Assembly: GCF_035083965.1 (NCBI RefSeq)
Contig: NC_089723.1
Location: 39,377,193 to 39,441,192 of the forward strand
Origin: Branchiostoma lanceolatum
Lineage: Eukaryota; Chordata; Leptocardii; Amphioxiformes; Branchiostomatidae
DNA: 64,000 nucleotides
Reading direction: 5' to 3'
In this document: one piece after another, positions 12,701 through 59,100 of the stretch
Layout: each line of letters starts with the position of its first letter
Numbering within the stretch: position 1 is the first letter of the stretch
Translations under genes and position numbers: made by a program
The notes under the pieces: model-generated
Database searches by the model: none
What the model saw: the letters and a program-made list of their open reading frames with translations, nothing else
Told to the model about the DNA's origin: nothing

Positions 12701-15700
12701 GTCACCTGACAATTGTTGTGCTGAGAGACTCTCTAGTCGTTGATCATGATTAAGCGGTAGTTACAGGGGTAAAGTAGTCATGTATGAACATTGTTTAATC
12801 ATTTCAAGGTGCGCAGATCTTATATTACTTTCATATTCGTTGTACAAACACTCCAAAACACACTAGGGACGCATTTTAGACTAAAACGCGCCTTCATATG
12901 AAGATCCACTTGATCCGGCATTGCATTGCGCTCTGTTTCAATACCTTGAAGAATACAACTTAAGCATGATACAACGCTGGCCTTGATTGAATGTCATTAT
13001 ATGAAGCGCTGCTTCGCACGGATTGACGTTTACTTGCACGGCCTAAACATTCAGAGTTTACGGTAAATATGCCGCCATTTTCAGCGCTTTGTGCCCAGTA
13101 TACTGTCAACATGGCGTCGTCGTCATAATTACGTCTGGAAAACGCGTTATCTTTAATGATGTCTCTGTGAGAGAAGCTGACAGAAAATTCCTATTGCATC
13201 TGTAATATCACCAAGAAAAACAGTGAATATGTGGGTACCCTCTCTGTTGGAAGTCTGTCCTCGTAAAAGTTTCCCCGATTTCCCCGATTTGTTGCGCTAT
13301 CTAAAGTACATTCTTTGAAAATAAGAAAATAACAATGTTTTGATGAACATGATTCACTTTCTCCAAACAGCTTACCAATGCAATAACAGAGATTCATTGA
13401 AGAATGTGAGGCGTCCACGATTCACTAACAAGATAACAACTAAACGATCAAATAGGAGGTGATATAAAAGTATTGCTTGCTCCTGGAGATTCCGTGGCAT
13501 GTGTATTAGCATTTTGTTTATCTCACCTTTTTCCGTTGGGGGCGGTGTGGCGTCTTGTACGGGATAAGACACACAGTTTGGTACGTACTGGTTTGAGAAG
13601 GTCACTGTAGGGTTGACACAAAATGATGATTAATCAAGACATCGTGTTTGTAGACTCTAACAATGAGGTTTCCCTCAGAAATATTCACACAAAAATTACA
13701 AATACTGACTTGACATCTGTCGCCGCTACCAAATACATGAGCGTCAAATAAACCATGCAATGCGAGCTCAGTATCATACATCAATATCCAACAGGTCAGC
13801 GTGAAAATCTGCTTGGTTCGAAAAAAAGAACAACGCTGTTCTCTGTTTGAATGATGAATTTTCAAACAAGTTGAATCACAAGTTATGAATACCAGAAATT
13901 GCTGCCCATAATGTATTTGTAACGTTATATCCTACAAAGGATAATATTCACATTCTAAGTTCAGCATTGTGCAAAAATTTGATGACAATGTTGATCTACA
14001 TCACTATGATGGACAGCTCGATGAAAAATACTCACTCGGTTTCTTGTTGATGGTACATACTGTGCTCCGAGCACCTGGCCCTCCTAATATCAAACACAAA
14101 TGATAAAAGAAGTCAGTTAAAACCTTAGAACCGTTTCCAGCCTGTTTACTTGCAGATCAAAATCAAATAGTTTTTTTTGAGTAGCCCGCCAAGTTGGCCT
14201 AGGCTTTAGGCTTGGGTTGAATTCTGAGTAATGTATAAAAAAGAAAACAAAAACTTCAGCAAAGCGATGGCACGGACAAAACTAACATTAAAAACATTCT
14301 AGTGACGCTGAAGATGAGTGATGGATGTCACTCAAAACTTCCGGAAGTAATGTCCATAATTGATCCAGTAGTAGAGTTTGAATTGTATATGAGTAACATA
14401 AACAACATTTACTACAACACTGATCAACAAAATCAGGGAGCCGAAGAGGCTGTGAGACAGTGCAAAGAAGGGAGTAAAATAGCTGAAACGAAATAGAGAA
14501 ATGGACGAAAAAACTACCTCTACTACTATCAGTCCGTCTAGTTCTGCACTAGAATATGGTACTGCGCACATTAATATAGCTCTAAGCTCGAAAAACACTT
14601 CAGAAAACAGTTCAAAATGTACGAAAGGGGTCAAGAACCAGTAAGTAAGGAAGTTCAAAAAAGTTTAGTGTTTGTGAGGGTTTGTTTGTCTGTATTGTCT
14701 GTGCGTCGGCGGCGTCTTCGAAGAAACTTGAGGAAACTAGAAAGAAAGAATGAAAGACAAAGCTGTCCTCACCGTTGGTCATGCCTGACTTCCATATCTC
14801 CAGCAGCGCGTAGAGGATCTGCCCGGACTCGGGGGCCCGGTAGATGAACTCCCGCTCCGCCAGGTCGCACAGCTGCGCCCCGTCCAGCGGGAAGCACTCC
14901 AGGTACACGTTGGGCAGGCGGTACTGGTCGGCCGTCCACTGCAGCCACCGGGCGACGTCAGGGGGAGACCACGTACGGGGGTCTGCGGGCGTACAAGAAG
15001 ACATAAGCGGTGCAAAAACATACACGCAGACTTGCACATACACGTACACGTTCGGCAGGCGGTCAGCCGTCCAGCGCAGCCACCTGGCTACGTCGGGGGA
15101 GAGACCACGTACGGGGGTCTGCGGGCGTACAAGAAGACATAAGCAGTGCACAAACATACACGCATACATACACGTTCGGCAGGCGGTACTGGTCAGCCAT
15201 TTAGCGCAGCCACCGGGCTACATCGGGGGGAGACCACGTACGGGGGTCAGCAGGAATACAAGAAGTCTGTCGATTTTGAAATGGGGCGACCGTTTAGCGA
15301 TCGACAAGTACGACCCAGGCTCGTCAACGACCCAGGCTCGTCAACTGTGTGACCGTCATTGTAACGGTTCTATCCGTCTCTTACCCTGCATGACTTGCAC
15401 TGATGCCACATTTCGAACAAAAATGCGTTGATTAACATCCGAAACTTATAAGATACGACAACACTGTATGGTTTTCCATCTGACCAAAAGCAACGAACTA
15501 ATAGCTATAGAAACATTAGTGATGACGGTGTAAATGTAAACATATGTGTTGTATCTCTATTATTTTAAACTGCGGCATCGCAAAGAAATAGAACTTGTAA
15601 AGACACAAAAGACATAAAATATTTGACACCAACATCTCCCTGTTTCGTTTTCTTCAATGCTTCTCTCTGTTTCCGTTTTTCATCACAGTCAAACCTGTAC

Positions 15701-17651: not shown

Positions 17652-17653
17652 AC

Positions 17654-19225
17654 CTGTTGAAGAAAGACAGACCATTATTGACACGTGTTCCTTCAGAACA
17701 TGACTTATCTAGTAGACCATGTCCTACGTACGGTGGGTAGTTCTTCTTTCAAATTTGTATTTTCTGAATAACATAAACTTCTGCTTTTAGCTGCAAAACA
17801 AAAGCAATAAACCTTTCTTCAACGAAAAATAACATATGTTGGCATAAACGTCCTACCAGACGTGCGTTAGACGAGCTAGGAGAGCATTTCTTTTTCTTTT
17901 CTTCTTTTACGTCTCTCAGTAATAGAAATACGGTCTTACCCAACATAGTAGAAATACGTACTTATCCAACATAGTAGAAACGTCGAGAAAAATGAAAATG
18001 CAACTTAAACGTTAATTGTCCAGCTTTACAAAAATGCACAAATAAAACAAACGGTGTAACTGAGGTCTACATCAAGTAGAACATGTCCAGATTTATTTCG
18101 ATACATTCTCTAGACTTGTCAGAGCGAAGAAGACTTTGTGTAGAATATTTCCTCAGGCACTTTTCTTGTCTTCTAGTCTGCCGTGTTTCCAAAACCAAGA
18201 CGCGTAGCAAAGAAGCTCAAAGGTGGTCTGAGGAAGTTATGATACGTCATCAAGCATAACGCGAAGTTTAACACTAAAATTACATTCTGCTTTTTAAAGT
18301 TTCGTTTCTCTCGCGAAGTTTTTAATCTGAAATAAACTAGCAACCGACTTTCCAAAAACCGATTCCGCGTTCAAATACGAAGCGTTACAAATTGAACCAA
18401 CATTTGAAGGGTGTGGAGAAGTCGAGCGCAGAAATATCCAAACAAACAACCTGGCAAGATTATCCAAAGGCCCTGAAACGACTGGATAACGATGTGCCGC
18501 AACAAAAAAGACAATGAAATTTCAAGTGTTCTGTCTTTCAGTGCACGTTTATATACAGATATATATGTTTTCAATAGATCTTGCTCAGATTTCCAGACAC
18601 AATGTTAGTTAAGATACAGTTTTTTTGTATAACCAGCCTTCCTTATATGAAGCGGACAAAGTTTGAACGGTGGCATTCATTATTACTCCATATCTACTGG
18701 TGCATGTGAAGATGTTCAGTCCACCTGCCGGAGTACGTACGTTAGGATAATTGTGACAGGGATAATTGTAACAACAACTTTGCAACAACAGAGGGATAAT
18801 TGTTACAGGTGGCCACACACTTCAGCGCGTGTCGGTCCAGCCGCGCATGTTTCTGGTCAATGTTTACTGCTCAGACAATTAGAATTCCTTCATCTCCACG
18901 CGGTTTGGGCCAGAAACTGGACAACGCGACGTTAGAGAACTCACAGAGCCTTACAGCCTGTATTGTAACCAATAAAAAATCGAAAACTGGGAAAAAATCT
19001 GACAGAATCAGAACTTTGCGCGATCAGAACACAGTATACTTTTGTGATGTTGTAAAGTACGTGCATTCGTACATATCTCGAGACTTGGTTGCGGAGGGGG
19101 AAATATACGGTATCTTCACACCCGATTGATATGATTAGGAAGGGGCTCTACAACACAGTGCAAAAACACTACAGGAGGAGAGTAAAAATCAGCTTCTGTC
19201 AATTTAAACAAATAAATGTCGTTAC
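17654..19225. other. upstream intron or intergenic DNA of the ETS gene
   Basis: No coding exon recognised. If the candidate leader exon ending at 19226 is real, this is a 1.6-kb first intron. Confidence 0.35.
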
Positions 19226-29354: not shown

Positions 29355-32300
29355 CAATTTTGTTGGAGGGGGAGCCCACATATTCACTACTTGTTCTGGG
29401 TGATACCAGTGCAGAATTTCAATAGAGGGAAAGCCCCCATATTCTCTGCTTGTTCTGGGTGATACCAGGACAGAGTTTCAATAGAGAGGGAGCCCCCATA
29501 TTCACTGCTCGTTCTGGGTGATACCAGGACAGAGTTTCAATAGATAGGGAGCCCCCATATTCACTGCTTGTTCTGGGTGTTACTAGGACAGAGTTTCAAT
29601 AGAGGGAGAGCCCCCATATTCACTGCTTGTTCTGGGTGATACCAGGACAGAGTTTCAATAGAGAGGGAGCCCCCATATTCACTGCTCGTTCTGGGTGATA
29701 CCAGGACAGAGTTTCAATAGATAGGGAGCCCCCATATTCACTGCTTGTTCTGGGTGTTACTAGGACAGAGTTTCAATAGAGGGAGAGCCCCCATATTCAC
29801 TGCTTGTTCTGGGTGATACCAGGACAGAGTTTCAATAGAGAGGAAGCCCCCACATTCACTGCTTGTTCTGGGTGATACCAGGACAGAGTTTCAATAGAGA
29901 GGAAGCCCCCACATTCACTGCTTGTTCTGGGTGATACCAGGACAGAGTTTCAATAGAGAGGGAGCCCCCATATTCACTGCTCGTTCTGGGTGATACCAGG
30001 ACAGAGTTTCAATAGATAGGGAGCCCCCATATTCACTGCTTGTTCTGGGTGTTACTAGGACAGAGTTTCAATAGAGGGAGAGCCCCCATATTCACTGCTT
30101 GTTCTGGGTGATACCAGGACAGAGTTTCAATAGAGAGGAAGCCCCCACATTCACTGCTTGTTCTGGGTGATACCAGGACAGAGTTTCAATAGAGAGGAAG
30201 CCCCCACATTCACTGCTTGTTCTGGGTGATACCAGGACAGAGTTTCAATAGAGAGGGAGCCCCCATATTCACTGCTTGTTCTGGGTGATACCAGGACAGA
30301 GTTTCAATAGAGAGGAAGCCCCCATAGTCGCTGCTTGTTCTGGGTGATACCAGGACAGAGTTTCAATAGAGAGGGAGCCCCCATATTCACTGCTTGTTCT
30401 GGGTGATACCAGGACAGAGTTTCAATAGAGAGGAAGCCCCCATATTCACTGCTTGTTCTGGGTGATACCAGGACAGAGTTTCAATAGAGAGGAAGCCCCC
30501 ACATTCACTGCTTGTTCTGGGTGATACCAGGACAGAGTTTCAATAGAGAGGGAGCCCCCATATTCACTGCTTGTTCTGGGTGATACGAGGACAGAATTTC
30601 AATAGAGGGGAAGCCCCCATATTCACTGCTTGTTCTGGGTGATACCAGGACAGAGTTTCAATAGAGAGGAAGCCCCCATAGTCACTGCTTGTTCTGGGTG
30701 ATACCAGGACATAGTTTCAGTAGAGAGGGAGCCCCCATATTCACTGCTTGTTCTGGGTGATACAAGGACAGAATTTCAATAGAGGGGAAGCCCCCATATT
30801 CACTGCTTGTTCTGGGTGATGCCAGGACAGAGTTTCAATAGAGAGGAAGCCCCCATATTCACTGCTTGTTCTGGGTGATACCAGGACATAGTTTCAGTAG
30901 AGAGGGAGCCCCCATAGTCGCTGCTTGTTCTGGGTGATACCAGTGCAGAATTTCAATAGAGAGGGAGCCCCATATTCACTGCTTGTTCTGGGTGATACCA
31001 GGACAGAGTTTCAACAGAGAAGGAGCCCCCATATTCACTGCTTGTTCTGGGTGATACCAGGACAGAATTTCAACAGAGACGAAGCCCCGATATTCACTGC
31101 TTGTTCTGTGTGATACCAGGACAGGGTTTCAATAGAGAGGAAGCCCCCACATTCACTGCTTGTTCTGGGTGATACCAGTGCAGAGTTTCGATAGAGAGGG
31201 AGCCCCCATATTCACTACTTGTTCTTGGTGATACCAGGACAGAGTTTCAACAGAGAGAGAGCCCCCATATTCACTACTTGTTCTGGGTGATACCAGGACA
31301 GAGTTTCAACAGAGAGAGAGCCCCCATATTCACTGCTTGTTATGGGTGATACCAGGAGATAGTTTCAGTAGAGAGAGAGAGCCCCCATATTCACTACTTG
31401 TTCTTGGTGATACCAGGACAGAGTTTCAATAGAGAGGGAGCCCCCATATTCACTGCTTGTTCTGGGTGATACCAGGACAGAGTTTCAATAGAGAGGGAGC
31501 CCCCATATTCACTGCTTGTTCTGTGTGATACCAGGACAGAGTTTCAATAGAGAGGAAGCCCCCATATTCACTGCTTGTTCTGGGTGATACCAGGAAAGAG
31601 TTTCAATAGAGAGGGAGCCCCCATATTCACTACTTGTTCTGGGTGATGCCAGGACAGAATTTCAATAGAGGAAAAGTCCCCATATTCACTGCTTGTTCTG
31701 GGTGATACCAGGACAGAATCTCAACAGAGAGGGAGCCCCCATATTCACTGCTTGTTCTGGGTGATGCCAGGACAGAGTTGCAATAGAGAGGGAGCCCCCA
31801 TATTCACTGCTTGTTCTGGGTGAAACCAGGACAGAATTTCAATAGAGAGTGAGCCCCCATATTCACTGCTTGTTCTGGGTGATACAAGGACAGAATTTCA
31901 ATAGAGGGAAATTCCCCATATTCACTGCTTGTTCTGGGTGATACCAGTGCAGAATTTCAATAGAGAGGGAGCCCCATATTCACTGCTTGTTCTGGGTGAT
32001 ACCAGTGCAGAATTTCAATAGAGAGGGAGCCCCATATTCACTGCTTGTTCTGGGTGATACCAGTGCAGAATTTCAATAGAGAGGAAGCCCCCATATTCAC
32101 TGCTTGTTCTAGGTGATACCAGGACAGAGTTTCAATAGAGAGGGATCCCCCATATTCACTGCTTGTTCTGGGTGCCAGGACAGAGTTTCAATAGAGAAGG
32201 AGCCCCCATATTCACTGCTTGTTCCGGGTGATACCAGGACAGAGTTTCGATAGAGAGGAAGCCCCCACATTCACTGCTTGTTCTGGGTGATACCAGGACA

Positions 32301-33460
32301 GAGTTTCAATAGAGAGGGAGCCCCCATATTCACTACTTGTTCTGGGTGATACTAGGACAGAGTTTCAATAGAGAGGAAGCCCCCATATTCACTGCTTGTT
32401 CTGGGTGATACCAGGACAGAGTTTCAATAGAGAGGGAGCCCCCATATTCACTGCTTGTTCTGGGTGATACCAGGACAGAGTTTCAATAGAGAGGGAGCCC
32501 CCATATTCACTGCTTGTTCTGGGTGATACCAGGACAGAATTTCAATAGAGAGGGAGCCCCCATATTCACTGCTTGTTTTGGGTGATACCAGGACAGAGTT
32601 TCAATAGAGAGGGAGCCCCCATATTTACTGCTTGTTCTGGGTGATACCAGTGCAGAATTTCAATAGAGAGGGAGCCCCATATTCACTGCTTGTTCTGGGT
32701 GATACCAGTGCAGAATTTCAATAGAGAGGGAGCCCCATATTCACTGCTTGTTCTGGGTGATACCAGTGCAGAATTTCAATAGAGAGGAAGCCCCCATATT
32801 CACTGCTTGTTCTGGGTGATACCAGGACAGAGTTTCAATAGAGAGGGATCCCCCATATTCACTGCTTGTTCTGGGTGCCAGGACAGAGTTTCAATAGAGA
32901 GGGATCCCCCATATTCACTGCTTGTTCTGGGTGCCAGGACAGAGTTTCAATAGAGAAGGAGCCCCCATATTCACTGCTTGTTCCGGGTGATACCAGGACA
33001 GAGTTTCGATAGAGAGGAAGCCCCCACATTCACTGCTTGTTATGGGTGATACCAGGACAGAGTTTCAATAGAGAGGGAGCCCCCATATTCACTACTTGTT
33101 CTGGGTGATACTAGGACAGAGTTTCAATAGAGAGGAAGCCCCCATATTCACTGCTTGTTCTGGGTGATACCAGGACAGAGTTTCAATAGAGAGGGAGCCC
33201 CCATATTCACTGCTTGTTCTGGGTGATACCAGGACAGAGTTTCAATAGAGAGGGAGCCCCCATATTCACTGCTTGTTCTGGGTGATACCAGGACAGAATT
33301 TCAATAGAGAGGGAGCCCCCATATTCACTGCTTGTTTTGGGTGATACCAGGACAGAGTTTCAATAGAGAGGGAGCCCCCATATTTACTGCTTGTTCTGGG
33401 TGATACCAGGACAGAATTTCAACAGAGAGGGAGCCCCATATTCACTGTCTGTTTTGGGGG
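29355..33460. repeat. 59-bp satellite array, ~70 copies (4.1 kb)
   Basis: The unit runs TGTTCTGGGTGATACCAGGA, CAGAGTTTCAATAGAGAGGG, AGCCCCCATATTCACTGCT (59 bp). Variants (AGTGCAGAATTTC; GGTGCCAGGAC, three bases shorter; TGTTACTAGGAC) recur in ordered blocks. The stretch about 31940-32640 is repeated at about 32643-33420 with one extra 56-bp unit, so units were duplicated in blocks. No frame persists across it, so it is not coding. Confidence 0.97.
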
Positions 33461-34671: not shown

Positions 34672-35064
34672 CTACACGTCGGTAAAACTACTATTACGCC
34701 AGCTGCCCTTCATGACCGGGTAGTTTGGGACAATCCTCGACATAGGGAAGTCCCGCGGCAGGAGGATGAACTGACTGCCGGGCGGTCCAGCGGCAGGGCC
34801 CCGGGGAAAGCCCGTCAGTCCATCGGCAGGGCCCCGGGGAAGGCCCGTCAGTCCGTCGGCAGGGCCCCGGCGAAGGCCCGGCAGTCCCGCGTCAGGGTTG
34901 CGGGGAAGGTCCGCCTCCACGTCCGGCTGCGCGGATTTCTTCCTGCGGTACAGGAGCAGGAGCACGACGTCCGTCAGGAACTCCGCCAGCTCGATAACCG
35001 TCATGATGGAGATCCCCATCCACAGCCCCAGCTGCCCGCCGATGTCTCCCAGAAGGTTCTCAAC
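34672..35064 (-). CDS. channel exon 10: TM2 and cytoplasmic tail
   Basis: After TATGCCAG it encodes VENLLGDIGGQLGLWMGISI, MTVIELAEFLTDVVLLLLY and RRKK, then a tail with GLPGLRRGPADGLTGLPRGP-type repeats (34790-34885). It stops at TAG. No PPxY motif of vertebrate ENaC tails is visible. Confidence 0.93.
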   Translation of the reverse strand, partial: VENLLGDIGGQLGLWMGISIMTVIELAEFLTDVVLLLLYRRKKSAQPDVEADLPRNPDAGLPGLRRGPADGLTGLPRGPADGLTGFPRGPAAGPPGSQFILLPRDFPMSRIVPNYPVMKGSWRNSSFTDV

Positions 35065-35369
35065 CTGGCATAGGAAACAAACGATCAATCAATCAATCGA
35101 CTAACCGATCAATAGACCAATCAATCAACCGATCAATCAATCAATCCATCAATTAACTAACTAACCAACCAACTAATCAATAAATAGACTAATCAATAAA
35201 TCGATCAGTAATTTATCAATCACTCAACTAATCAACCAAGAATCCAATGACTTCCAAGTAGATTGACAATTGCCACTATGCAGTTTTGCATATAGAATCT
35301 ACTAAACCTCATTGAACATACATAAACCAACTTTTAGATGATGGTCCAAGTGATCGACACACGTTGGTA

Positions 35370-35444
<75 letters not shown>

Positions 35445-38400
35445 GATAAAGCTACATGTAGACTAAAGCAGAAACATTACCTCGTACGATGGCGTTTCAT
35501 AAATGTGCTCTATGTTCATGTTTTCAAAGTAGACTGCGACTTGGATGAAGCCCTCCCTGCAAAGTTGAGAATATCCTTATCATTACAGAGTAGATGCCGA
35601 TATCAACGGTTTATGAGAAAAATTGCATATGTCAGGATAGAGATTGCGATCTGTCAGAATCGGCGATTCTATCGGTAGAGATCCCGATCGGAGTCTCTGT
35701 CAACAGAAACTCAGATACCTTGGTCATACCCACCCGAGAAAACATACATTTCAATGCGGAATGCGCCAGAAGTTGAGGGAGTTTTGTGTCTTCGAACATG
35801 AAACTGTAGCAACTTTGATTCCAATCTCCGAATCCGGTATTCGAATTTCTGACGGCCGCGCAACCGGCGTGCTCGAAATGCGTTCGAAATATTCTATGGA
35901 AGCCTGTGTGATAACCCTCCCGAACCCTATGTGATCCGGATAGTTATCACACGGTCCGGAACACCCGTATCAGGCCCAGGCATGACATAATGTTGGTTCT
36001 CGTTACGAGAGTTCCCAGAACACTCACCTCACTGCTGCCGCCGTTCCGAGATTCCCGAACCCCGTACCGTGTCTGTTCATCATGTCTTCAATAAACGTCT
36101 CCTGGAAATATTCACCAGGAAGTTAGTTTTCATGGAAGAACTTCAAATGTCTGTAGCAAAGTTGAACTGGTAATTTCTAACACAACAATTGGACTCTACC
36201 AAATCTTCGACTGACCAACTATTTTTCAAGGAATGAGGTTGGACAGTCGAAAATTTAGGTAAGGCCAATTTTTGTGCAGGAAATTCCAGTTTGACTTTGC
36301 TTCAGAATGATTTTTACCTACACAGATAAACTAATTGTCGACTAAACGGGGGCTACGATTTGCTCCTTAGTTATTGAGTCGCAGTTACATCAAGCATTAA
36401 CTGACTACAAATGGTAGATACCTACAACCCATCATAAGTTAGACTCAAGTAGGTAAGGAAGGATTTCTTGGAATACACTCTCATACTTACGGTATATAGA
36501 GGTGCCGGCCACTCACCGAAGCCAACAGACGACGAAAAGATTGTCTCCCTAAACAAGGGTAAACATGTCGTTAATGTCATTTGCTCAAAACAAACCATCA
36601 GTAAACATTAGAAACAGTCAACAGGTTGTACATTGTCTAGTAACGCCAGATAGAATTTAGTACACTAGCAAAACTATTTGTACGCCTAATTAATCTCTTA
36701 CTTAAGTCTAGATGCCAGACTGTTTTCAGGGCATACACAGGCTCTAACATAGGGGATGGGGTCTGTGGTAAAATTTTCTCGGGGCAAGGTGGCTTTGGAG
36801 CCGAGCAGCTGGCCTGTGTAGGCCCTGGAATCAGTCTGGCATCCCGGCTACTCTTACCTGCACGCCGCTGGACAGTCGCACTGCAGGGAACCGTTCTGGT
36901 ACAGCTTCTTGAAGACAGTCCTGCATGGATCTAGGATGGCACAGGACATGAAATTCAATTTTGCCACGGTTCAAGTAAAGCTAATAGTCCCCACTGCGTA
37001 GAGGTCTTGTGAATATTACCCAAATTCCCAGTTGCAACTAAGCCACATCCAGGACCGCATTTACAGCTAAACCTTAACCCCTAACCGTAGCCCTAACCCT
37101 AACCCTAACCCGACCACTGACCCCAACCCTAACCTGAACCTGAACCCGAACCCTACTGAGGTCATTTACTTAGAGCTAAGTTATACGTTCGTCTGTATTT
37201 TTGTGGGTCAGCCGCTACCAGCGAAAGCTGCCTTGGCTGACCCAGTGTAATGACTTGTCTCATTGTGAATAAATGTTATGCTCTGGAAAACTCGCCTCAC
37301 CCTTTGGATGACAGGGCACTTCGTTGTCCGGGATCTTGATGTACGGATCCGCGCACCCGCACCTCTCCACTATCTGCTGCTGAAGGCACGTCTTCTCGCA
37401 CAGCTTCACGGAGTAGGAGTAGCTTTCCGGAAACAGCCTGATGTCACTTCCGTTCTTCAGCCGATAGAACCCCTTGTCTTTTCCGTCTGTACAAGGACCG
37501 TAATTTCCGCCCTTGCGTTCCAGCAGGGTCTGGAAAAGTTGCGATATAAGCAAGGATAAATCCAGTCATGAACAGTGATGAGAGGGAATATAAAGTCAGT
37601 TACGTTTGGAAGCACATTCTTCACACTACATCAGCGACACCTAACTGTATTGCGAAGTAGAACCATCAATTGCCCTCAGGAAGATGGCAGACGGTCGCCA
37701 AAACGTCGGATATCTTATCAACACTTCTGTTGTGTACACAATTTTTTATCCAGAGATTAACCAACCTACTAGTTGTTTTTGCACTAAATTGCCTAACCTG
37801 GCTCAGCCCGATAGACAATGTGTATCCAGGTGGTAGGGAGATGACCTCCTCCCGGCAAACTTACCTGGCTCAGCCCGACGGACACGGTGTTATCCAGGCG
37901 GCAGGGATATGCCCTACTCTCCGGCAAATTTACCTGGCTCAGCCCGATGGAAACAGTGTACCCAGGCGGTAGAGAGACGCTCTCCTCTCCGGCAAACTTA
38001 CCTGGCTCAGCCCGATGGACACGATGTATCCGGGCGGTAGGGAGACGCCCTCCTCCCCGCCGAACTTACCTGGCTCAGCCCGATGGACACGGTGTACCCA
38101 GACGGGAGGGAGACGCCCTCGTCCCCGCCAAACTTACCTGGCTCAGCCCGATGGACACGGTGTATCCAGGCGGCAGGGAGACGCCCTCCTCCCCGGCGAA
38201 CTTACCTGGCTCAGCCCGATGGACACGGTGTACCCAGGCGGTAGGGAGATGCCCTCCTCCCCGGAGAGCTTACCTGGCTCAGCCCGATGGACACGGTGTA
38301 CCCAGGCGGTAGGGAGACGCCCTCCTCCCGCCAAACTTACCTGGCTCAGCCCGATGGTCACGGTGTACCCGGGCGGTAGGGAGATGCCCTCCTCCCGGCG

Positions 38401-41400
38401 AACTTACCTGGCTCAGCCCGATGGACACAGTGTACCCAGGCGGAAGGGAGATGCCCTCTTCCCCGGCGAACGGGTACTGTGTGTGCTCGTGGATGAGCAG
38501 CCGGGCTCCCGCTGCAGGGGTCAGGTCACTCAGGTACTCGTCCGGATCCAGGAATAGGGTCAACTGAAGACCTGTGGTTACACGAAGACACGTATTTCAA
38601 CGTCAACTCAGGTCTTATTTAAAAGGTTTGCTCCAAGTTCAAAGGCATACCCTTGAGGTAAACGGCGTGTATCTAAAAAAAGACACTTCTGTGTACGTGT
38701 ATGGAGGCATTGGTTTTAATGTGCCTGTCTGTTTGTCTGTCTGTGTTTAGCGCTTTTTATCCATACGATGATTATATACACGTCTCACCTCAGAGTGACA
38801 GGAAATGAAAGGCAAGAGTTCAGTCCTCTATAAACCTTGTCTGACAGCTGACAGATATTCCATGTCACGGGGTCAATGGAAGAGGCTACTAATTCACGAG
38901 CAGGTCTGTTGGTCTGTTCTCTCGCAGTTATACATTTTGCATACGCTATTCACGTCCATCATTGAAAAAATGAACAATGTACACATACATTGTAAATCAA
39001 CACCTTACTTGCATCATTACTGAACTTCAATCAAACATGGCAATCGAGAACTGTAAATATTTCACGGAGGTTTGAGATCCTCGAACGCTTGTAGCATGAC
39101 GTGGGTCTCACCGTGTAGCGGCCCAGGCTGTTTGGCGGTCCAGAAGGCTCCGCCCCTGGTTTGACCGCTGTTGAAGATGAAACAGTTTCCGTACGTTTCG
39201 TCCAATATCGTCACAAAATCCCTGCACCAAAGGAAAACAAGCATGATCACAATTAACAATACATTTAGCCTGGACGTCAGACTGTTTATATGGCCTACAT
39301 GGGACAGCTTCTCGGGCCAAGATGTTTCTCAGGGTCTAACTCAGGGAGGTTGTGGTAAAATTTTGTCAGGGGCATGCTGGCCCCGGAGCCGAGGACCTGG
39401 CCTGTGTTGGGCCTGGGAGTAGTCTAGAATCCAGGCTAGAATACCTTCTACCCTGAACATTCTGTAAAATTGTTAGAAAACTAGTGAAGTGGAAAATGGG
39501 GATGGCGCTAAATTGTGAGGTTCAGGCCACTGCTACAATAACATAAGTTTGACGTCAAAGGTCCATACATTATGCATGTGCAATCAACATAAGTACATCA
39601 GGTTTCTGCTTAAATGCCGTTGATATCTTTACGCTCTGTCGGAAGAACTCATGTATGCGTAATGAAACTCACACGATGCGTTATATTTTGACTGTACATT
39701 CTGTTTGTCCTTCACATTTACAACATTACAAACTTGATTGCACACCAATTGTATGCTAAAGTGCCAAGTAGTTATACATAACGACTCTTAGATATACGCC
39801 ACTCTATCTATAGGTAACGAAAACATGATAAAGTAAAATTATGATGATCAGAATGCACAGGAGACATTGTTAACATTACAAGTTTTGTCTGAGATAATCT
39901 GCGTAGAGCACTAGATACATATTGGCTTTGAAAAGAAAATTGAGTCAGGAAATAGAAGAAGTAGATTGAATGTCTATGTGCATGTACTAGACTTGGGTTA
40001 AGATTATGTTGGTTTTTACAATTGATATACGTGGGGCATACCAATAGAAGGATATATGATAAAATTGGCTTACTCTTCGGGGGAGCATATCCGGCCGTTA
40101 AATGTACACTCCTGTATGAAGTCCTGCTTGTCGTGCCCCATCTCGTTGCGGATGGTAGTGTTCAGGCTAGCGAGCAATGCAGAGAAGTTCTGGGCCTTCT
40201 CGTAGCTGACAGAAAGAGGCAGGCTCTCTTCATCCACCGCCAGTATCTCACCAGGAGGGACAGACTCCTCCGTGTCGTAGTACTCGTACTGCATGGGACG
40301 GAGAATAACAGCATCCCTGAATAGTTTCATCAGGCCAATCACTTGATAGCCAAGTTCTTTACACAGAACCAGTACACAATCAGCTCCCGATGTTTAAGTG
40401 ACCGTCTGTCACCTTCCTCAGGGTTATTCGGTATTTCAGGTGATTGTATACTGGTTGTGTGTAAAGGATGTTGTTATCCGGAATAACAGCATGGTTGCTC
40501 AAGTATATGTTAACATCTTCATCTTTTTTTATAGATTATCAATCTCTAGATATCTCAGGTGGTATACAGAACACACTTTAGTGAATCCTAATTTTGAGTC
40601 ACTTCCCTAAAATGTTTATTCAGAAGTTGAGCACACTTACGTCGGAAGTTGTTGTTGATAAAGGTTCAGTTGTCTCCCTTGTGCTTTGCCGAGTCGTTGC
40701 TTCCTCCCACTTGCTAGGTTCCTCTGATGATGGGTCCGATACTTTGACAGACTTTGATGAAGTTTCTGCTACTGCAGTAGTTAAGACTGGACCGTTCGAT
40801 GTAGAATTGTGTTTTAAAGGAGAAGTCAGTATCTTGGATGTCCCAATTGCCTGTCGAGAATGTATTTCTTGTGATGTTGTGGATATATCTGTTGTAGTGT
40901 TTAGTGAATCAGTACCTATTGTTGGCATTGTCGATTTGCCACTGGTTTCTTGTAAAGTGTCCGTTGTCGCTGAAGTTATTCGGGACGTAATGGCTAGATG
41001 GTCATTATTAGTACTTGACACAACGTCAGACGTCATAGTGGTATGATGTGACGTATTTGACGTCATGGTGGTCTGTAGTGACATGCCTGACGTCATAGTG
41101 GTCTGTTGTGACGTGAGTGACGACAAGTTGGTTTGTGGTGATGTGTTCGATGAGAAGTTCCCACCAGTTGATGTGGCAGAGGCAGAGGTGGTTATTTGCA
41201 AGGCATTTGATGGCGAATCAGCACCATGTAAAGTGCTCGACCTCCTTGTGCTTTGAGAGGAACTGTTCAATCGTATAGTAGTGTCGGCGGTCTCTTCTAA
41301 TGTCGTTCTTGTGGTACTGTTATCAGGCGGAGAGGACATAGTCTTCTCGTCTGATATGTTTGATGTCACCGTAGATAATGAGGAATCAAGAGACGATAAA

Positions 41401-43676
41401 GTTGTACCCTGTGATGTGTCCGAAATTACTGTCCTCTCTCGCACCATGTTTGTTGTGGATGCATTGCCCGCATGCAGAGTTGTTTCTGTTGGTGTGTACG
41501 TTGTCTGAGTGGTCCCTTTTGACACATTTGTTGTCACAAAAGTTTCAAATGTTGATCTAGAAGTATTTTGCGATATATCTGACGTAGCTACAGTTGTCGA
41601 TTGTAGTGTGTCCAATGATAAGGTGGTCCCACGGGACATATTTGTCGCCATGTTGCTTTCTGATGAAGCGTCCAATGTTGTTACAGTTGTATTCTGTGTC
41701 AGGGTTGGTGTAACACTGCTGTCAAGTGTTGATCTATTCAATTGGGCAACAGAAGTCTCTCGTGACTCTGTGTTTACTGTTGAAGTGCCCCAGGTCGCAT
41801 TGCTCTCTTGTGACATACTGGATGGTTCGGTGTTTGTTTCCGACGTTTCCCACTCTGTTGCCGTGATCTCTTGAAATATTTCTGAAGTCATTGCAATTTC
41901 TGTAGCACTCTCTGTTACGATGGTCTCTTCTAATGCATCTTTTGTCATTGCAGTTCCTGAAGTGGTCCAGCTTGCACTGCTCTCTTGTGACAGACCCGAT
42001 GGTTCGGTGTTTGTTTCAGACGTTTCCCATTCTGTTACAGTCATGTCTTGAAATATCTCTGATGTCATTGTATTTTCTATGGTAGTTTCTGTTACGGTAT
42101 TCTCTTGTAATGTGTCTGATGCCATGGCGGTTTCTGACGTGGTCCCCTGAACAGTGATCGTGCTTATTGTTGGGTCTAATATTACAGGGGTCCCTTGGGA
42201 CGTATTTGATGTTACGGTGTTTGATGATGAAATGTTCCAAATGAAAGTGGTCTCTTTTGGCGTATTCGATGATACTGTGCTTGTCGATGTGTTCCATTGT
42301 AAAGTAGAGTCTGTGGACATGTTTGATGACACTGTGCTTGCCGATGTGTTCCATTGTACAGTAGAGTCTGTGGACATATTTGATGACACTGTGTTTGCCG
42401 ATGTGTTCCATTGTACAGTAGAGTCTGTGGACATGTTTGATGACACTGTGCTTGCTGATGTGTTCCATTGTACAGTAGAGTCTGTGGAAATGTTTGATGT
42501 CGCTGTGCTTGCCGATGTGTTCCATTGTACAGTAGAGTCTGTGGACATGTTTGGTGGCAGAGTGTTTGTGGATGAAATGTTCCATGTTCCAACTGTCTGT
42601 CGAGACACGGTTGTTGTTAATTGGGGCATTGTTGTATCGTACGGTGGCGAATTGGTGCCAGGCAGTGCGTCCGACGTCGCAGTGGTCTCTGGTGGTGCAG
42701 TGTTTGAAGATGATGAGCCCATTGTTGTGGTGTTTACCGGTGATAGGTTTGTTGGTGGCGAAGTCTGTGCTGTAGTATTCGAGGAAGTGGTTAATGTTTC
42801 AGATGATGATGAAGAAGATGATAATAATAATGTTTCTGACGCGTAAGATACCGTAGTTGCCGTACTTGACATTCTAGTGACATCATCAAATGGGACCTCT
42901 GTGACTCTCCCTGCAGTGCTAGTGGGTGATGCTTGAACAATTCCCGTTGTAGTGTTCGATGACACTGTAGTTTGTTCTGGTGTCGTGGTTGGTGGTGATC
43001 CGCTGGTTCCCAGTGTAGTGTTCACCGTGTCCTGCTCCGTAGAGATCATGCCAGCATCTGTTATCCCTGTTGTCGCAGTTACATTGTTTATGGGTTCTGA
43101 AAACATCGACGATGTAGTTTTCATCTCTTCGGTACTGTTGTCCGCATCTCCACCCGGCGTAGTCGTCAGTGGAGTAGTCTTTCCTGTTAGCGACGTTGTC
43201 GTGTCATCTTGATAATATGAAGTGGATTCCGGTTCTTTTAATGTCGATGTACCACTTGTTGCTTCGGTGTTGCCTGATACACCATCTGCACTTGAAAATG
43301 TTGTCGCAACCGACACCTCTGTAGATGTAGAAGTGTCTGCTTCCCTCTTCTTTCTCCTGTTCTCTTGCGGTGCAACGTCTGTGAGGTTGCGTTTGGACCG
43401 TCTCACCGCGTTCAAGTTACAGATGGCAACGGCAGGAAACTTTATCTCAGGTTTAGAATCGATTTCTACGTTTGTAACTACCGGGTATGAAAAATATTTC
43501 ACCAGGATGTCGTGGAAATTGTAGATGAAGTACGCGCACGCCCCGAGAAATAGCAGCGACCACATAACCCGACGGACCATCGATGTGGCCGTGCTTGTGC
43601 GGGGGATGCCATGGGCGGAGGAATTCTCGCGAAAGTTTTTCCACAGCCCGCCCAGGGATTTACCATCGTCCGCCAT
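34672..43676 (-). CDS. DEG/ENaC (amiloride-sensitive) sodium channel subunit with mucin-like insertion (10 coding exons)
   Basis: Joining 43676-40641, 40288-40074, 39221-39112, 38571-38408, 37529-37301, 36930-36858, 36548-36491, 36101-36028, 35556-35481 and 35064-34672 gives 4428 nt (1475 aa) with all phases matching. Residue 22-23 is the conserved N-terminal His-Gly gating motif; TM1 spans ~37-57, then FPAVAICNLN (80-89). The ectodomain keeps LTLFLD, TPAAGARLLIH, LPPGYTVSIGL and Cys-rich QCDCPAAC. TM2 (GGQLGLWMGISIMTVIE) has the GxS selectivity motif. These channels are plasma-membrane trimers passing Na+. Family members are usually 500-700 aa. The excess is a Ser/Thr/Asn-rich segment (~115-1010) with many N-x-S/T sites. 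RRKKR at 107-111 is a furin-type site just before it. The ATG chosen (AAGATGG) has a strong context; an in-frame ATG at 43724 is weaker. Subtype (ENaC, ASIC or FaNaC-like) not resolved. Confidence 0.92.
34790..34890 (-). repeat. coding ~36-bp minisatellite in channel tail
   Basis: Three to four units of GGCAGGGCCCCGGGGAAG-type sequence on the + strand encode GPADGLTGLPR repeats. Confidence 0.85.
35085..35225. repeat. degenerate (ATCA)n tract in intron 9
   Basis: AATCAATCAATCGACTAACC-type tetranucleotide repeats beginning about 20 bp from the exon 10 acceptor. Confidence 0.85.
35368..35441. repeat. (TA)n microsatellite in intron 9
   Basis: About 35 TA units, starting ~40 nt downstream of the exon 9 donor in the direction of transcription. 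Confidence 0.97.
35481..35556 (-). CDS. channel exon 9
   Basis: Encodes EGFIQVAVYFENMNIEHIYE then TPSYE, the pre-TM2 beta strand seen as LNIFFKELN-like in ENaC. Acceptor TTTGCAG and donor GTAATG. Phase 2 to 0. Confidence 0.9.
36028..36101 (-). CDS. channel exon 8
   Basis: 74 nt encoding ETFIEDMMNRHGTGFGNLGT then AAAV, between ATTTCCAG and GTGAGT. Phase 0 to 2. The position matches the variable palm-to-wrist segment. Confidence 0.78.
36491..36548 (-). CDS. channel exon 7
   Basis: 58 nt encoding ETIFSSSVGFGEWPAPLYT. The WPA corresponds to the WP motif after the Cys-rich segment in this family. An internal GTGAGT (36516) would be an alternative donor. Confidence 0.85.
36695..36845. repeat. intronic repeat, copy 1 (AGATGCCAGACTG family)
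   Basis: It shares GTGGTAAAATTTT, GGAGCCGAG, CTGGCCTGTGT and GGCCTGG with 39265-39440 in intron 3 of the same gene. Both copies begin and end with short inverted TCTAGAT/GTCTGGCAT motifs. Confidence 0.65.
36858..36930 (-). CDS. channel exon 6: Cys-rich segment
   Basis: Encodes PCRTVFKKLYQNGSLQCDCP then AAC. The CDCPAAC pattern is the family C-x-C-x3-C motif. Phase 1 to 2. Confidence 0.92.
37060..37155. repeat. degenerate telomere-like (CCCTAA)n patch
   Basis: About 15 units of CCCTAACCCTAACCCTAACC with CCTGAACC and CCCGACC variants inside intron 5. The chordate telomere unit is TTAGGG, so it resembles an interstitial telomeric repeat. Confidence 0.8.
37301..37529 (-). CDS. channel exon 5
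   Basis: 229 nt encoding TLLERKGGNYGPCTDGKDKG, then SYSVKLCEKTCLQQQIVERC and GCADPYIKIPDNEVPCHPK. The conserved C-x3-C and CGC motifs of the thumb are present. Phase 0 to 1. Confidence 0.94.
37600..37760. mobile_element. partial MITE (GCGACACCTA family) in intron 4
   Basis: ATCAGCGACACCTAACTG, GGAAGATGGCAGACGGTCGC and AAAACGTCGGATATCTTATC match the right half of the element at 48841-49100. Confidence 0.6.
37793..38470 (-). repeat. minisatellite spanning the exon 4 splice donor, 10 copies
   Basis: CTTACCTGGCTCAGCCCGAT (donor complement plus exon end) recurs near 37793, 37860, 37929, 37997, 38065, 38133, 38201, 38270, 38336 and 38403, every 66-69 bp. Each unit holds ~57 nt of exon end (GEEGISLPPGYTVSIGLSQ) and the start of intron 4. 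Eight of ten keep CAG|GTAAGT; 37929 has GTAAAT and 37793 GTTAGG. Only the 38403 unit adjoins the rest of the exon. Confidence 0.95.
38408..38571 (-). CDS. channel exon 4
   Basis: 164 nt encoding GLQLTLFLDPDEYLSDLTPA then AGARLLIHEHTQYPFAGEEG, ISLPPGYTVSIGLSQ. This beta-ball/palm region is highly conserved in the family. It ends at the first of ten donor copies; use of a later donor would lengthen the exon by multiples of ~68 nt and usually shift the frame. Confidence 0.92.
38580..39111. other. intron 3, nothing recognised
   Basis: No repeat or extra exon identified in this intron. Confidence 0.5.
39112..39221 (-). CDS. channel exon 3
   Basis: 110 nt encoding DFVTILDETYGNCFIFNSGQ then TRGGAFWTAKQPGPLH. 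YGNCFIFN is the family YGNC-(Y/F)-(T/I)-FN motif. Donor GTGAGA. Confidence 0.93.
39265..39440. repeat. intronic repeat, copy 2 (AGATGCCAGACTG family)
   Basis: CTGGACGTCAGACTGTTTAT, GTGGTAAAATTTTGTCAGGG and GAGCCGAGGACCTGGCCTGT align with 36695-36845. Confidence 0.65.
39441..40073. other. intron 2, nothing recognised
   Basis: AT-rich with no open frame of interest. Confidence 0.5.
40074..40288 (-). CDS. channel exon 2
   Basis: 215 nt, acceptor CCATGCAG, donor GTAAGC. It encodes YEYYDTEESVPPGEILAVDE, then NTTIRNEMGHDKQDFIQECT and FNGRICSPE. The FIQECTFNGRIC stretch is the family C-x-FNG-x-C motif, directly preceding YGNC in exon 3. Confidence 0.93.
40350..40477. mobile_element. short MITE in intron 1
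   Basis: Inverted ends AAGTTCTTTACACAGAACCA and the complement of TGGTTGTGTGTAAAGGATGT flank GTGACCGTCTGTCACCTTCC, an internal block shared with the MITE at 48841. Confidence 0.7.
40641..43676 (-). CDS. channel exon 1: N-terminus, TM1 and mucin-like domain
   Basis: A single 3036-nt exon (1012 codons, phase 0 to the donor GAC|GTAAGT). The first ~100 codons are the standard channel start. The rest is a Thr/Ser/Asn-rich stretch of low complexity with NTS, NMS and NIS sites, expected to be heavily glycosylated. A + strand open frame overlapping it is only an antisense shadow. Confidence 0.9.
42235..42560 (-). repeat. coding 60-bp minisatellite in the mucin domain
   Basis: About five to six 60-bp units encode NMSTDSTVQWNTSASTVSS, in frame. 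Further out, diverged ETNTEPS and EIFQEMTVTEWETSE-type repeats occur. Confidence 0.92.
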
Positions 43677-55624: not shown

Positions 55625-56175
55625 CTACAGACATGTTTTCTGACGAGAGGAATAATGCTCTAATGTTCTTAGCGTGGTTGATACTTCAGCTGTTCCATGT
55701 TTACAAGACATGGAATGGTTTAAGAATACGGTACGATTAAAAGAAGTACCTGGAACAGTCTGGCATATGTAGCCAGAATCCATGCTGCATGATCTGACGA
55801 CCCACTTGTCAGAATTTCTGCCATCGTATTGAGCGCACGCTTTGCTCGTCGGGTCTCCCAATGGTTGTCCCGGAGCCCAGGAGTTGTACGTGCCGAGTGC
55901 AGAACCATCCATCCACTCAAAGCTTCCTTCCCTGTGCTGACGATGCAGGCCGAACCAAAAGCACCCCCTGTTGTTCACGGACTTGTACAAGGAGATCAGG
56001 AAGGCGTTGGTCTCAGCGTCTCGGGGCATGGCGAGGGTGCCGCCGTCCTCACGACAGATCGCGGCTGCTTCGATGAAGGTCTTGATTATGTACATGCTGA
56101 AGTTGGGTCTGCACAGAAAGCCGAAGGCCTTGTAGCAGATGCCACGCCACATTGTGTAACCTTTAGGACAAGAGA
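55625..56175 (-). CDS. lectin exon 4: C-type lectin domain
   Basis: After GTTTTCCAG it encodes SCPKGYTMWRGICYKAFGFL, then AAAICREDGGTLAMPRDAET, FEWMDGSALGTYNSWAPGQP and the closing CAQYDGRNSDKWVVRSCSMD. It reads to TAG at 55625 unless the donor at 55749 is used. Confidence 0.9.
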
Positions 56176-59100
56176 CTGGAAAACACACAACTTAGATAGG
56201 GATAGACATTGGTGATTGTCCATCAAATCATCCATCATATATCATTGCATTTACTTATTTGCTCCATCAAAAGACCATATCTTCTCAGTAGGGTGTCCAT
56301 GAAAACTGGAGATATTATTTTGGGTGTGTCGAGATCTGTCTGTATGTTTGTCTGTCTGTCTGTTTGTTTGTGTTTCCGCACTACTCTAGTCAGCATAACT
56401 CAAGAACCTCTTGATGGATTACGATGATGTTGGGTATGTGACATTGTGATGTGATGTGATGTAGCTTGTGATGTAATAAAGAAGTGGTGTCGGTTTCGGC
56501 TCCCTAGCAGCTTGCTCTAGAACTGCAGTGGCGTTATTGTGAAAATCTTCTAAGGGAATAACTGAACAAAGGATTTCAATGACATTTAGTATACATGTAG
56601 CTTAGACAGAGATGTACACAATGAAGTGCAAGTTTTGCTAATTGGAACTTGATTCGCATAACAATGAGGAAAATCTATATTTGCAGTGTTTTCCATTATA
56701 AGACTCAAATACATGTAAAATATGTAGTTTATGGCAAGTGGAGTATCAAAAGATACCAATTACGCAAATATATTCCTAATTTGCATAATTAATGCAAAAG
56801 TGCCATAATTCATCTAAGTGTTAGATGAATGTTTGTCAACATTGCGACATGTGTAAGTTGGTGTTCATGACCAAGCATATACAGTATTATGTAAATGTGT
56901 AAATCAGTTGCATAAACAGAATAGTTCATGGAGATATGAGGTCGCGGAACTCTTGTTTTATTTGATATTAGCAAAAATAATACCTGCTATGAGACATTGA
57001 AGTAATACATTATGATATAACATAACATAACATAGCATAACATCATGCATATGAACACATAAGTAGAGGAAATAATATGTTAATCAATGCCACATATTAC
57101 ATGTTGTCATATAAATGATATACTGATAATATTGAAAGCGGAACTTTGTGCTTGCTTCAACTCGTTAGAGTATGTCTATGTCTATGTCTATGTCTATGTC
57201 TATGTCTATGTCTATGTCTATGTATGCATACAAATGATGTTGTCCAATACGCCATCAAGAATGATACATATAACAATTGAAACCCAACTTACGTAACGTC
57301 TTACTCATCTCGTGAAGACGCTGCTCCAAGGCGGCGGTTCGGCCTCGCTCCTTGTCCAGGTCTCGCTTCAAGGCGTCAAAAGCGGTGGACATGTCGTCTT
57401 GGTCGTGCTTCAAGGCGTCAACAGTGGCGGACAGTTGGCGCATGTCGTCTTGGTCGCGCTTCAAGGCGTCAACAGTGGCGGACAGTTGACGCATGTCGTC
57501 TTGGTCCCGCTTGAAGGCATCAACAGTGGTTGACATGTCGTCTTGGTCGCGCTTCAATGCGTCAACGGTGGTGGACAGTTGGCACATGTCATCTTGGTCG
57601 CGTTTCAAGGCCTTTACAGTGGTGGACAGATGGGATATCTCCTGCGTACGTCACAATACGGAACGTAAAAACCAAAAAGAGGAAAAACAGTAGCAACTGC
57701 CATGATAGTTTCCTAAGAAATAACCGAAAACAAACAATGTCAGAAAACAAATTTGGCATCTCAAATGTTCATCATCATCATCATCATCCGTCGACCTCTG
57801 CAGCAGAGGACGGGGCGAGCCCTTGTACAACCGAGGCCCACATCAGTCTGTCTGACATGGCTGCTCCCAAGTCCTCCAACTCAATCCCTGTGTCCCTTGA
57901 GATAGTCCTTCAAATGTTACAAGAAAGTTTACCTCTTTATTGATGAATGTCAGAGGGGCGAGTCCCACAGCAATCAGGCTCAGTAGCACGGCAACCCCGG
58001 CGGCCATGCAGCTGCGGTGGGAGCGGAGGGAGCTACAGACACCACGGCGACCACTTACTCCTCCCGGATACGTGCTGTCTGTTAAAGATATTCATTTGAC
58101 TCAGATGATTATCATTAACCTCGCCAAAATGCTTATGGTATAGTAGGGTTTCTGTACCGGTAGATGTTAAAAACATTGCATCCATACGATAATTAAAAAC
58201 TCTGTGCAAAAGAATTGTGTGACCCCTGACCTCCAATCCTGACGCACAAATATGTTATGTAAATATCAGTTTATTGCTTGTATATGTGTACCTATGGCCT
58301 CCCTGAAAATCTGTGCCAAGCCACTGAGGGAGCTACCCTAGTAAAAGAAGAAAATACAGAAATACAGATAAAATAAAATTTGTAACTGTATTTATATAGA
58401 CGGTATAACTGCCATTCGGCGTAACACACCAGCTTCACAGGTACGCGGCGCGGTACGGCAGCAGCTGGTTATATTACACTGAACGGCCTGTTACACCTAA
58501 TCTTTGCACATCTAACTGCAACCGTTCTTTAAAGCCATTTATTGAGGATGCCCCTACAGTATACGTACTTGAAAGTTTTTGTTTGTGGTTTAACAGCATA
58601 ACTCAAGAAGCTAAGAATGCACTGTCATGAAATTTTGGTTTGTGATGAGGTCTTGGCCTATGAAAGAAATGGTTAGATTTTTGTGACTGGTGTAGAAAAC
58701 TCAAGGGATGGCCCAGGCGGACGTTTTTCTCGTTGTTTTTGACAGAACACCAGCGGCAAGACATGCCACCGGAATTTCCCGAAACCTCGCCGAACCCTGC
58801 CGAAGACTGACGGCGAAAACGATTGAGTTGCGCAATTTCGCTGGAATGTTTGTGGCCCCGCGAAACTAAGGGGATCATCATTAGGCTCGTTTATGTGTGG
58901 TTTTGAAAGCTGAAAGTATGAAGTTATTAAGCATGTGCTAAACAGTGTCAGTGAATGTCACTACCATAAAGATTTCAGCATTTATCTATTTCCACTCTTT
59001 TGGCCATAAAACTGCTTTACCTTTCTTTAAGTGCTTCGTTTTTTGTCGATGAAATTCATTGAGTGCATTGTCAATTTCATAAGCCGCAGCGACGCCGCCA

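Follow-up and report, generated by a model that had tools for sequence, protein, structure and literature searches.

Mirages, minisatellites that lie across an exon-intron border, have been described in lancelets at Adh3 and in the globin genes BflGb6 and BflGb9 (PMC3087553). According to that account, both types of border occur, many units retain their AG/GT signals, copy number varies between haplotypes, regular splicing is seemingly undisturbed, and mirages have been proposed as a source of new introns (PMC3087553). PGBD5, where the 5' splice site is directly adjoined by the first repeat, has been added as a host, with troponin C also cited (PMC3902484). Here we analysed a 64,000-nt stretch of Branchiostoma lanceolatum (NC_089723.1, positions 39,377,193 to 39,441,192 of the forward strand; hereafter the window, numbered from its first letter), in which exon 4 of a DEG/ENaC channel gene runs into ten tandem copies of its own donor border. 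We consider it quite probable that this is a mirage-type minisatellite produced by tandem duplication at the exon 4/intron 4 border, that the donor adjoining the complete exon (donor 1) would be used by way of exon definition, and that the array would be renewed from its exon side. As far as open-library literature searches reach, neither the array nor the gene is in print.

The host gene was modelled by hand as follows (all exon rows are from this model):

34672..43676, minus strand: DEG/ENaC channel gene (hand-built GT-AG model, Pfam ASC domain, matches to PDB ENaC and ASIC chains)
43676-40641, minus strand: exon 1
40288-40074, minus strand: exon 2
39221-39112, minus strand: exon 3
38571-38408, minus strand: exon 4 (164 nt, ending in phase 0; unit 1 of the array corresponds to its last ~60 nt)
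37529-37301, minus strand: exon 5 (phase 0 join to donor 1)
36930-36858, minus strand: exon 6
36548-36491, minus strand: exon 7
36101-36028, minus strand: exon 8
35556-35481, minus strand: exon 9
35064-34672, minus strand: exon 10

The ten exons join with matching phases into an unbroken frame of 1475 codons and one terminal stop, and the introns on either side of exon 4 are 540 and 878 nt long in this model. All of the exon borders are predicted, the least certain being the start of exon 2, which was picked by phase among candidate acceptors. The Pfam ASC domain (PF00858, amiloride-sensitive sodium channel) covers the product from its N-terminal through its C-terminal membrane segment, which places it among the DEG/ENaC channels: the N-terminal 97 aa match profile positions 1-83 (E 1.5e-21), and exons 2-10 match positions 131-455 (E 7.9e-66). 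ENaC and ASIC chains in PDB can be aligned to the ectodomain, and the best match is ENaC beta (E 3.3e-41). Downstream of the first membrane segment, exon 1 (40641-43676, minus strand) encodes a very long region rich in Ser and Thr, whose tandem repeats have periods of 57, 177 and 30/60, each divisible by three.

The array and its donors are located as follows:

37796..38471, minus strand: tandem array of ten ~68-bp units (Tandem Repeats Finder (TRF), unit lists)
38402..38410, minus strand: authentic donor 1, CAG|GTAAGT, adjoining the complete exon (first intron base 38407)
37792..38343, minus strand: nine decoy donors (border list)
38340, 38273, 38205, 38137, 38069, 38001, 37933, 37864 and 37797, minus strand: first intron bases of the decoys

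TRF reports a period of 68, 10.0 copies, 88% matches and a score of 1000 for the array, and self-identity is 0.697 at lag 68 versus 0.24 at lag 60 and 0.255 at lag 75. In each unit the final ~57 nt of exon 4 are followed by the donor and by ~10 nt of intron, and the units stand head-to-tail with successive donor spacings of 67, 67, 68, 68, 68, 68, 68, 69 and 67 nt. Among the 18 internal borders of the channel gene, the exon 4 donor alone is covered by a nearby direct repeat. The ten tandem copies reported in the initial annotation are borne out by TRF and by ten minus-strand CAG|GT borders, but the span it gave (37793..38571) reaches too far at the exon end: in our model exon 4 begins at 38571, and the array stops at about 38471. 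That annotation also held that most copies keep their coding sense. With each exon-like segment taken in the frame set by its own donor, nine of the ten copies do so over the last 18 codons, with some amino-acid changes. The exception, the ninth copy (donor 37864), carries a one-base insertion, and even with this discounted it contains a stop codon. Copies 2, 3 and 10 have a different residue at the start of the segment as well, beside a one-base difference in a G run.

Perfect CAG|GTAAGT donors number seven out of ten, so the "eight equal donors" claimed before are corrected to seven perfect ones. GTAA is kept in nine of the ten, and the imperfect donors read GTAAGC (38273), GTAAAT (37933) and GTTAGG (37797, the last copy). 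On both strands of the window CAGGTAAGT occurs seven times, and all seven occurrences are donors of the exon 4 array. Scored with a donor weight table and a U1 5' end, the seven perfect donors are equal (score 12.63, U1 duplex -12.4 kcal/mol); the other three score 11.35, 8.82 and 7.4, and the other eight donors of the channel gene score 5.75 to 11.47 with the same weight table.

The ten donors differ in what they would produce. When the exons were joined in silico, the full 1475-codon product was obtained from donor 1 (38407) alone, and each of the nine later donors led to a premature stop. With donor 2 the stop is in exon 5, 150 nt past the normal end of exon 4, and with donors 3 to 10 it is met at 126 nt past that end, within the extension; all of these stops sit 427-994 nt upstream of the last junction. 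It had been claimed that later donors shift the frame two times out of three, and indeed six of the nine do so, but the remaining three (extra 270, 474 and 543 nt) are in frame and still hit a stop, which brings the truncated products to nine out of nine. Judging from the unbroken frame through donor 1, regular splicing is likely to be undisturbed.

Compared with the described systems, the exon 4 array appears to be a further mirage, agreeing in the three features tested (border span, kept signals and edge divergence), and the idea of a new exon-border instance in a channel gene holds up for the gene type (DEG/ENaC), the position at the exon 4 donor and the published anatomy. As in the mirages of PMC3087553, an exon-intron border is repeated in tandem, signals are present in many copies, copies at the edge fall outside homogenisation, and both donor and acceptor sides are represented (the latter by a second array in the window, described below). 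What is different is the hosts, here a DEG/ENaC gene and a putative gene of ETS type. Copy number is ten in the exon 4 array versus 6 and 3 in two BflGb6 haplotypes (PMC3087553) and 2-7 and 3-6 in the PGBD5 repeats (PMC3902484), a comparison that covers BflGb6 and PGBD5. Copy-number variation and normal splicing have been reported for known mirages, whereas the exon 4 array is known from the sequence of one haplotype. No relatives turned up in a protein scan of viral contigs or in a 22-base pattern scan of genome contigs, two collections that are not intended for animal sequences. There is also a likeness to intron gain by AGGT-segment duplication (potato RdRp, PMC4974935) and to the Rogers model (as cited in PMC3087553), in that a segment with a splice signal is tandemly duplicated within a gene. 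Unlike in such intron-gain duplications, the intron pre-exists here, no new acceptor is evident, and the copies lengthen the intron.

How the splicing machinery would pick one of several equal donors was raised as a puzzle in the initial annotation, and an answer is available from another system. In transfected minigenes that carried two identical CAG/guaagu donors between introns of 365 nt, the upstream donor, nearest to the exon, was used exclusively (PMC9225289). The exon 4 array is like these minigenes in having identical CAG/guaagu donors behind a single acceptor; the minigenes carried two engineered donors in transfected cells, whereas the array has ten natural ones, seven of them identical (PMC9225289). 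Exon definition is said to set in at introns of 200-250 nt (PMC9225289), a threshold exceeded by both introns flanking exon 4 (540 and 878 nt), and donor 1 is the expected choice because exon 4 has 164 nt and introns of this length around it. By analogy, exon 4 would be recognised as an exon, the donor nearest its own acceptor (donor 1) would win, and the remaining copies would be removed together with the intron. Under intron definition the rule is the opposite, the sites closest across the intron being paired, which selects the downstream donor (PMC9225289).

Donor choice could also be less strict. If later donors were used at some rate, transcripts with premature stops would result, and copy number would lower channel output through nonsense-mediated decay. 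Such leaky use would fit with the six decoys that equal donor 1 in their U1 match (-12.4 kcal/mol in a duplex calculation), with stops that lie upstream of later junctions for all nine later donors, and with a border core that is identical in all ten copies. It is nevertheless unlikely, given that the Adh3 and globin mirages are said to leave regular splicing intact (PMC3087553), that the minigenes resolved two identical donors exclusively in favour of the upstream one (PMC9225289), and that the donor 9-mers of the decoys are kept no better than the remainder of the unit. As for the assembly, tandem repeats are error-prone, and one mirage was aberrantly assembled in a genome draft (PMC3087553). 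An assembly artefact is very unlikely, however, as the copies differ by up to 12 of 57 nt and are therefore not one sequence stacked, and re-examined data together with newly obtained sequences confirmed lancelet PGBD5 repeats of like kind (PMC3902484). The exact copy number of the exon 4 array could still be wrong.

Two other explanations for the choice or the role of the donors were tried and dropped. RNA folding might mask the decoys and leave donor 1 free, and in the predictions donor 1 is the most open at W 150 (0.046 versus at most 0.012), while at W 300 donors 1 and 2 (0.009 and 0.011) exceed donors 3-10 (at most 0.004). But donor 1 is surpassed in openness by six decoys (2 and 4-8) at W 80 and by donor 2 at W 300, and no setting clearly masks donor 2 although it also has to be ignored; with a pattern that is inconsistent across the three W settings, we give very little credence to folding as the cause. 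CAG|GTAAGT is the core of a recursive splice site. Every perfect unit ends in this motif, and the copies might be recursive splice points (zero-length exons) at which the intron is removed stepwise. A good pyrimidine tract, expected before AG|GT, is missing in the units, which have 8-10 pyrimidines out of 17 and an AG at -6 in all ten, whereas the nine modelled acceptors of the gene have 10-13 out of 17 and no AG at -6 (the two ranges touch at 10). Recursive splicing is accordingly hardly credible at all.

Returning to a duplication array with donor 1 chosen by exon definition, we asked what its units say about its history. Counted over the 57 exon-like nt of each unit and taken in order from exon to intron, the differences from the consensus are 3, 3, 2, 0, 3, 4, 4, 6, 6 and 7. 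Neighbouring units are more similar to each other (Mantel r 0.40, P 0.016 without unit 10; r 0.30, P 0.048 with it). The divergence of edge copies that goes with exclusion from homogenisation is visible at the intron edge only. We infer that unequal exchange or replication slippage would renew the array from the exon side, and that units would at times pass through the selected first position. Decoys would in this way go on resembling exon and donor while serving no role themselves, and the copies nearest the intron would age. Of 21 distinct changes seen in the nine decoys, 11 are synonymous versus 27-34% expected, an excess that we read as passage through the first position and not as decoy translation, given that the frame is disrupted by the lengths of the units and that a stop codon occurs in one decoy. 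Selection on the decoy donors was considered and dropped, since their 9-mers are changed no more rarely than the rest of the unit, either with unit 10 (4/81 sites versus 30/450, P 0.80) or without it (2/72 versus 24/400, P 0.40); six of nine decoys are perfect, versus 4.84 expected.

A second border array was found in the window, in this case at an acceptor:

14900..15265, minus strand: second border array, a three-copy repeat across the acceptor border of an exon with a PNT domain (TRF, Pfam, border test)

Its exon-like starts are at 15247, 15118 and 14982, and an acceptor CAG is present before 15118 and 14982 (two of three) and lost before the outermost, 15247. The exon (14773-14982) encodes a SAM/Pointed (PNT) domain (E 2.6e-22), and its acceptor, the sole border tested outside the channel gene, is covered by its own array. 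The authentic splice site lies closest to the complete exon in both border arrays. If the upstream exon brings the same phase, splicing to the middle acceptor would put the product out of frame and cut it short. For competing acceptors under exon definition, the upstream preference was significantly reduced (PMC9225289), and by analogy exon definition gives a weaker prediction for this acceptor-side array. Further along the minus strand, a frame at about 6050-6211 matches the Pfam Ets domain (E 1.8e-18), and the PNT exon and this frame may belong to one ETS-type gene.

The two border arrays can be set against the tandem repeats found inside open frames in the same window. In the latter the period is divisible by three in 13 of 13 TRF rows (these rows overlap and stand for about six arrays), counted in four frames, namely channel exons 1 and 10, 15954-17708 and the coiled-coil frame 57255-57650. 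Border-array spacings are rarely divisible by three (one of nine in the exon 4 array, 69; one of two in the second array, 129), as expected if border units are not translated.

Several observations weigh against the interpretation given above. Donors 9 and 10 would give introns of 335 and 268 nt, near the intron-definition range, and the argument for donor choice in the array leans by analogy on minigenes of another system. Over a 16-nt core at the border all ten copies are identical (column-shuffle P 0.0009, post hoc), and third codon positions, which differ among copies in 10 of the 13 codons upstream, are constant in the five beside the donor (hypergeometric P 0.0065, post hoc). Plain ageing does not predict an invariant border core and fixed last codons, and the comparison of donor 9-mers does not account for the core. 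The synonymous excess is weak, with P ranging from 0.012 to 0.065 depending on the assumed transition bias (the first codon was dropped because of the indel). As for the repeat periods, two of the four frames counted (15954-17708 and 57255-57650) lack a confirmed gene model.

One may go further and combine these results into a broader proposal, in which border arrays are frequent in the genome, are placed next to an intact exon on its intron side through shielding by exon definition, and tune channel expression by the number of decoys via truncated transcripts; taken as a whole this is doubtful. In the same proposal the duplication junction itself may have created the strong donor: past GTAA the intron reads on as the copied exon segment begins (GTTCGCCGGG), whereas the last copy, where it meets the old intron, reads GTTAGG. 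Donor-side and acceptor-side arrays within 64 kb do suggest that border arrays may be common in the genome. The exon 4 array is a natural ten-way donor competition, with seven identical donors in a gene of unbroken frame, which goes beyond two-site minigenes and allows a test of whether nearness to the exon's acceptor alone decides donor choice. It also bears on the proposal that mirages seed new introns (PMC3087553).

Other repeats in the window include ~70 copies of a 59-bp unit (92% matches) at 29366-33458, downstream of the channel gene. The frame at 57255-57650 (minus strand) is coiled-coil-like, consists of 17-residue repeats and lies near a C-type lectin exon (55628-56191). The repeats at 7392-7665 and 15685-15920 have TRF consensus units of ~57 bp that look alike by eye in opposite orientation, as if they belonged to one dispersed repeat family. 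A 26-bp repeat at 17923-17980 contains GGTAAG-like letters (seen by eye only).

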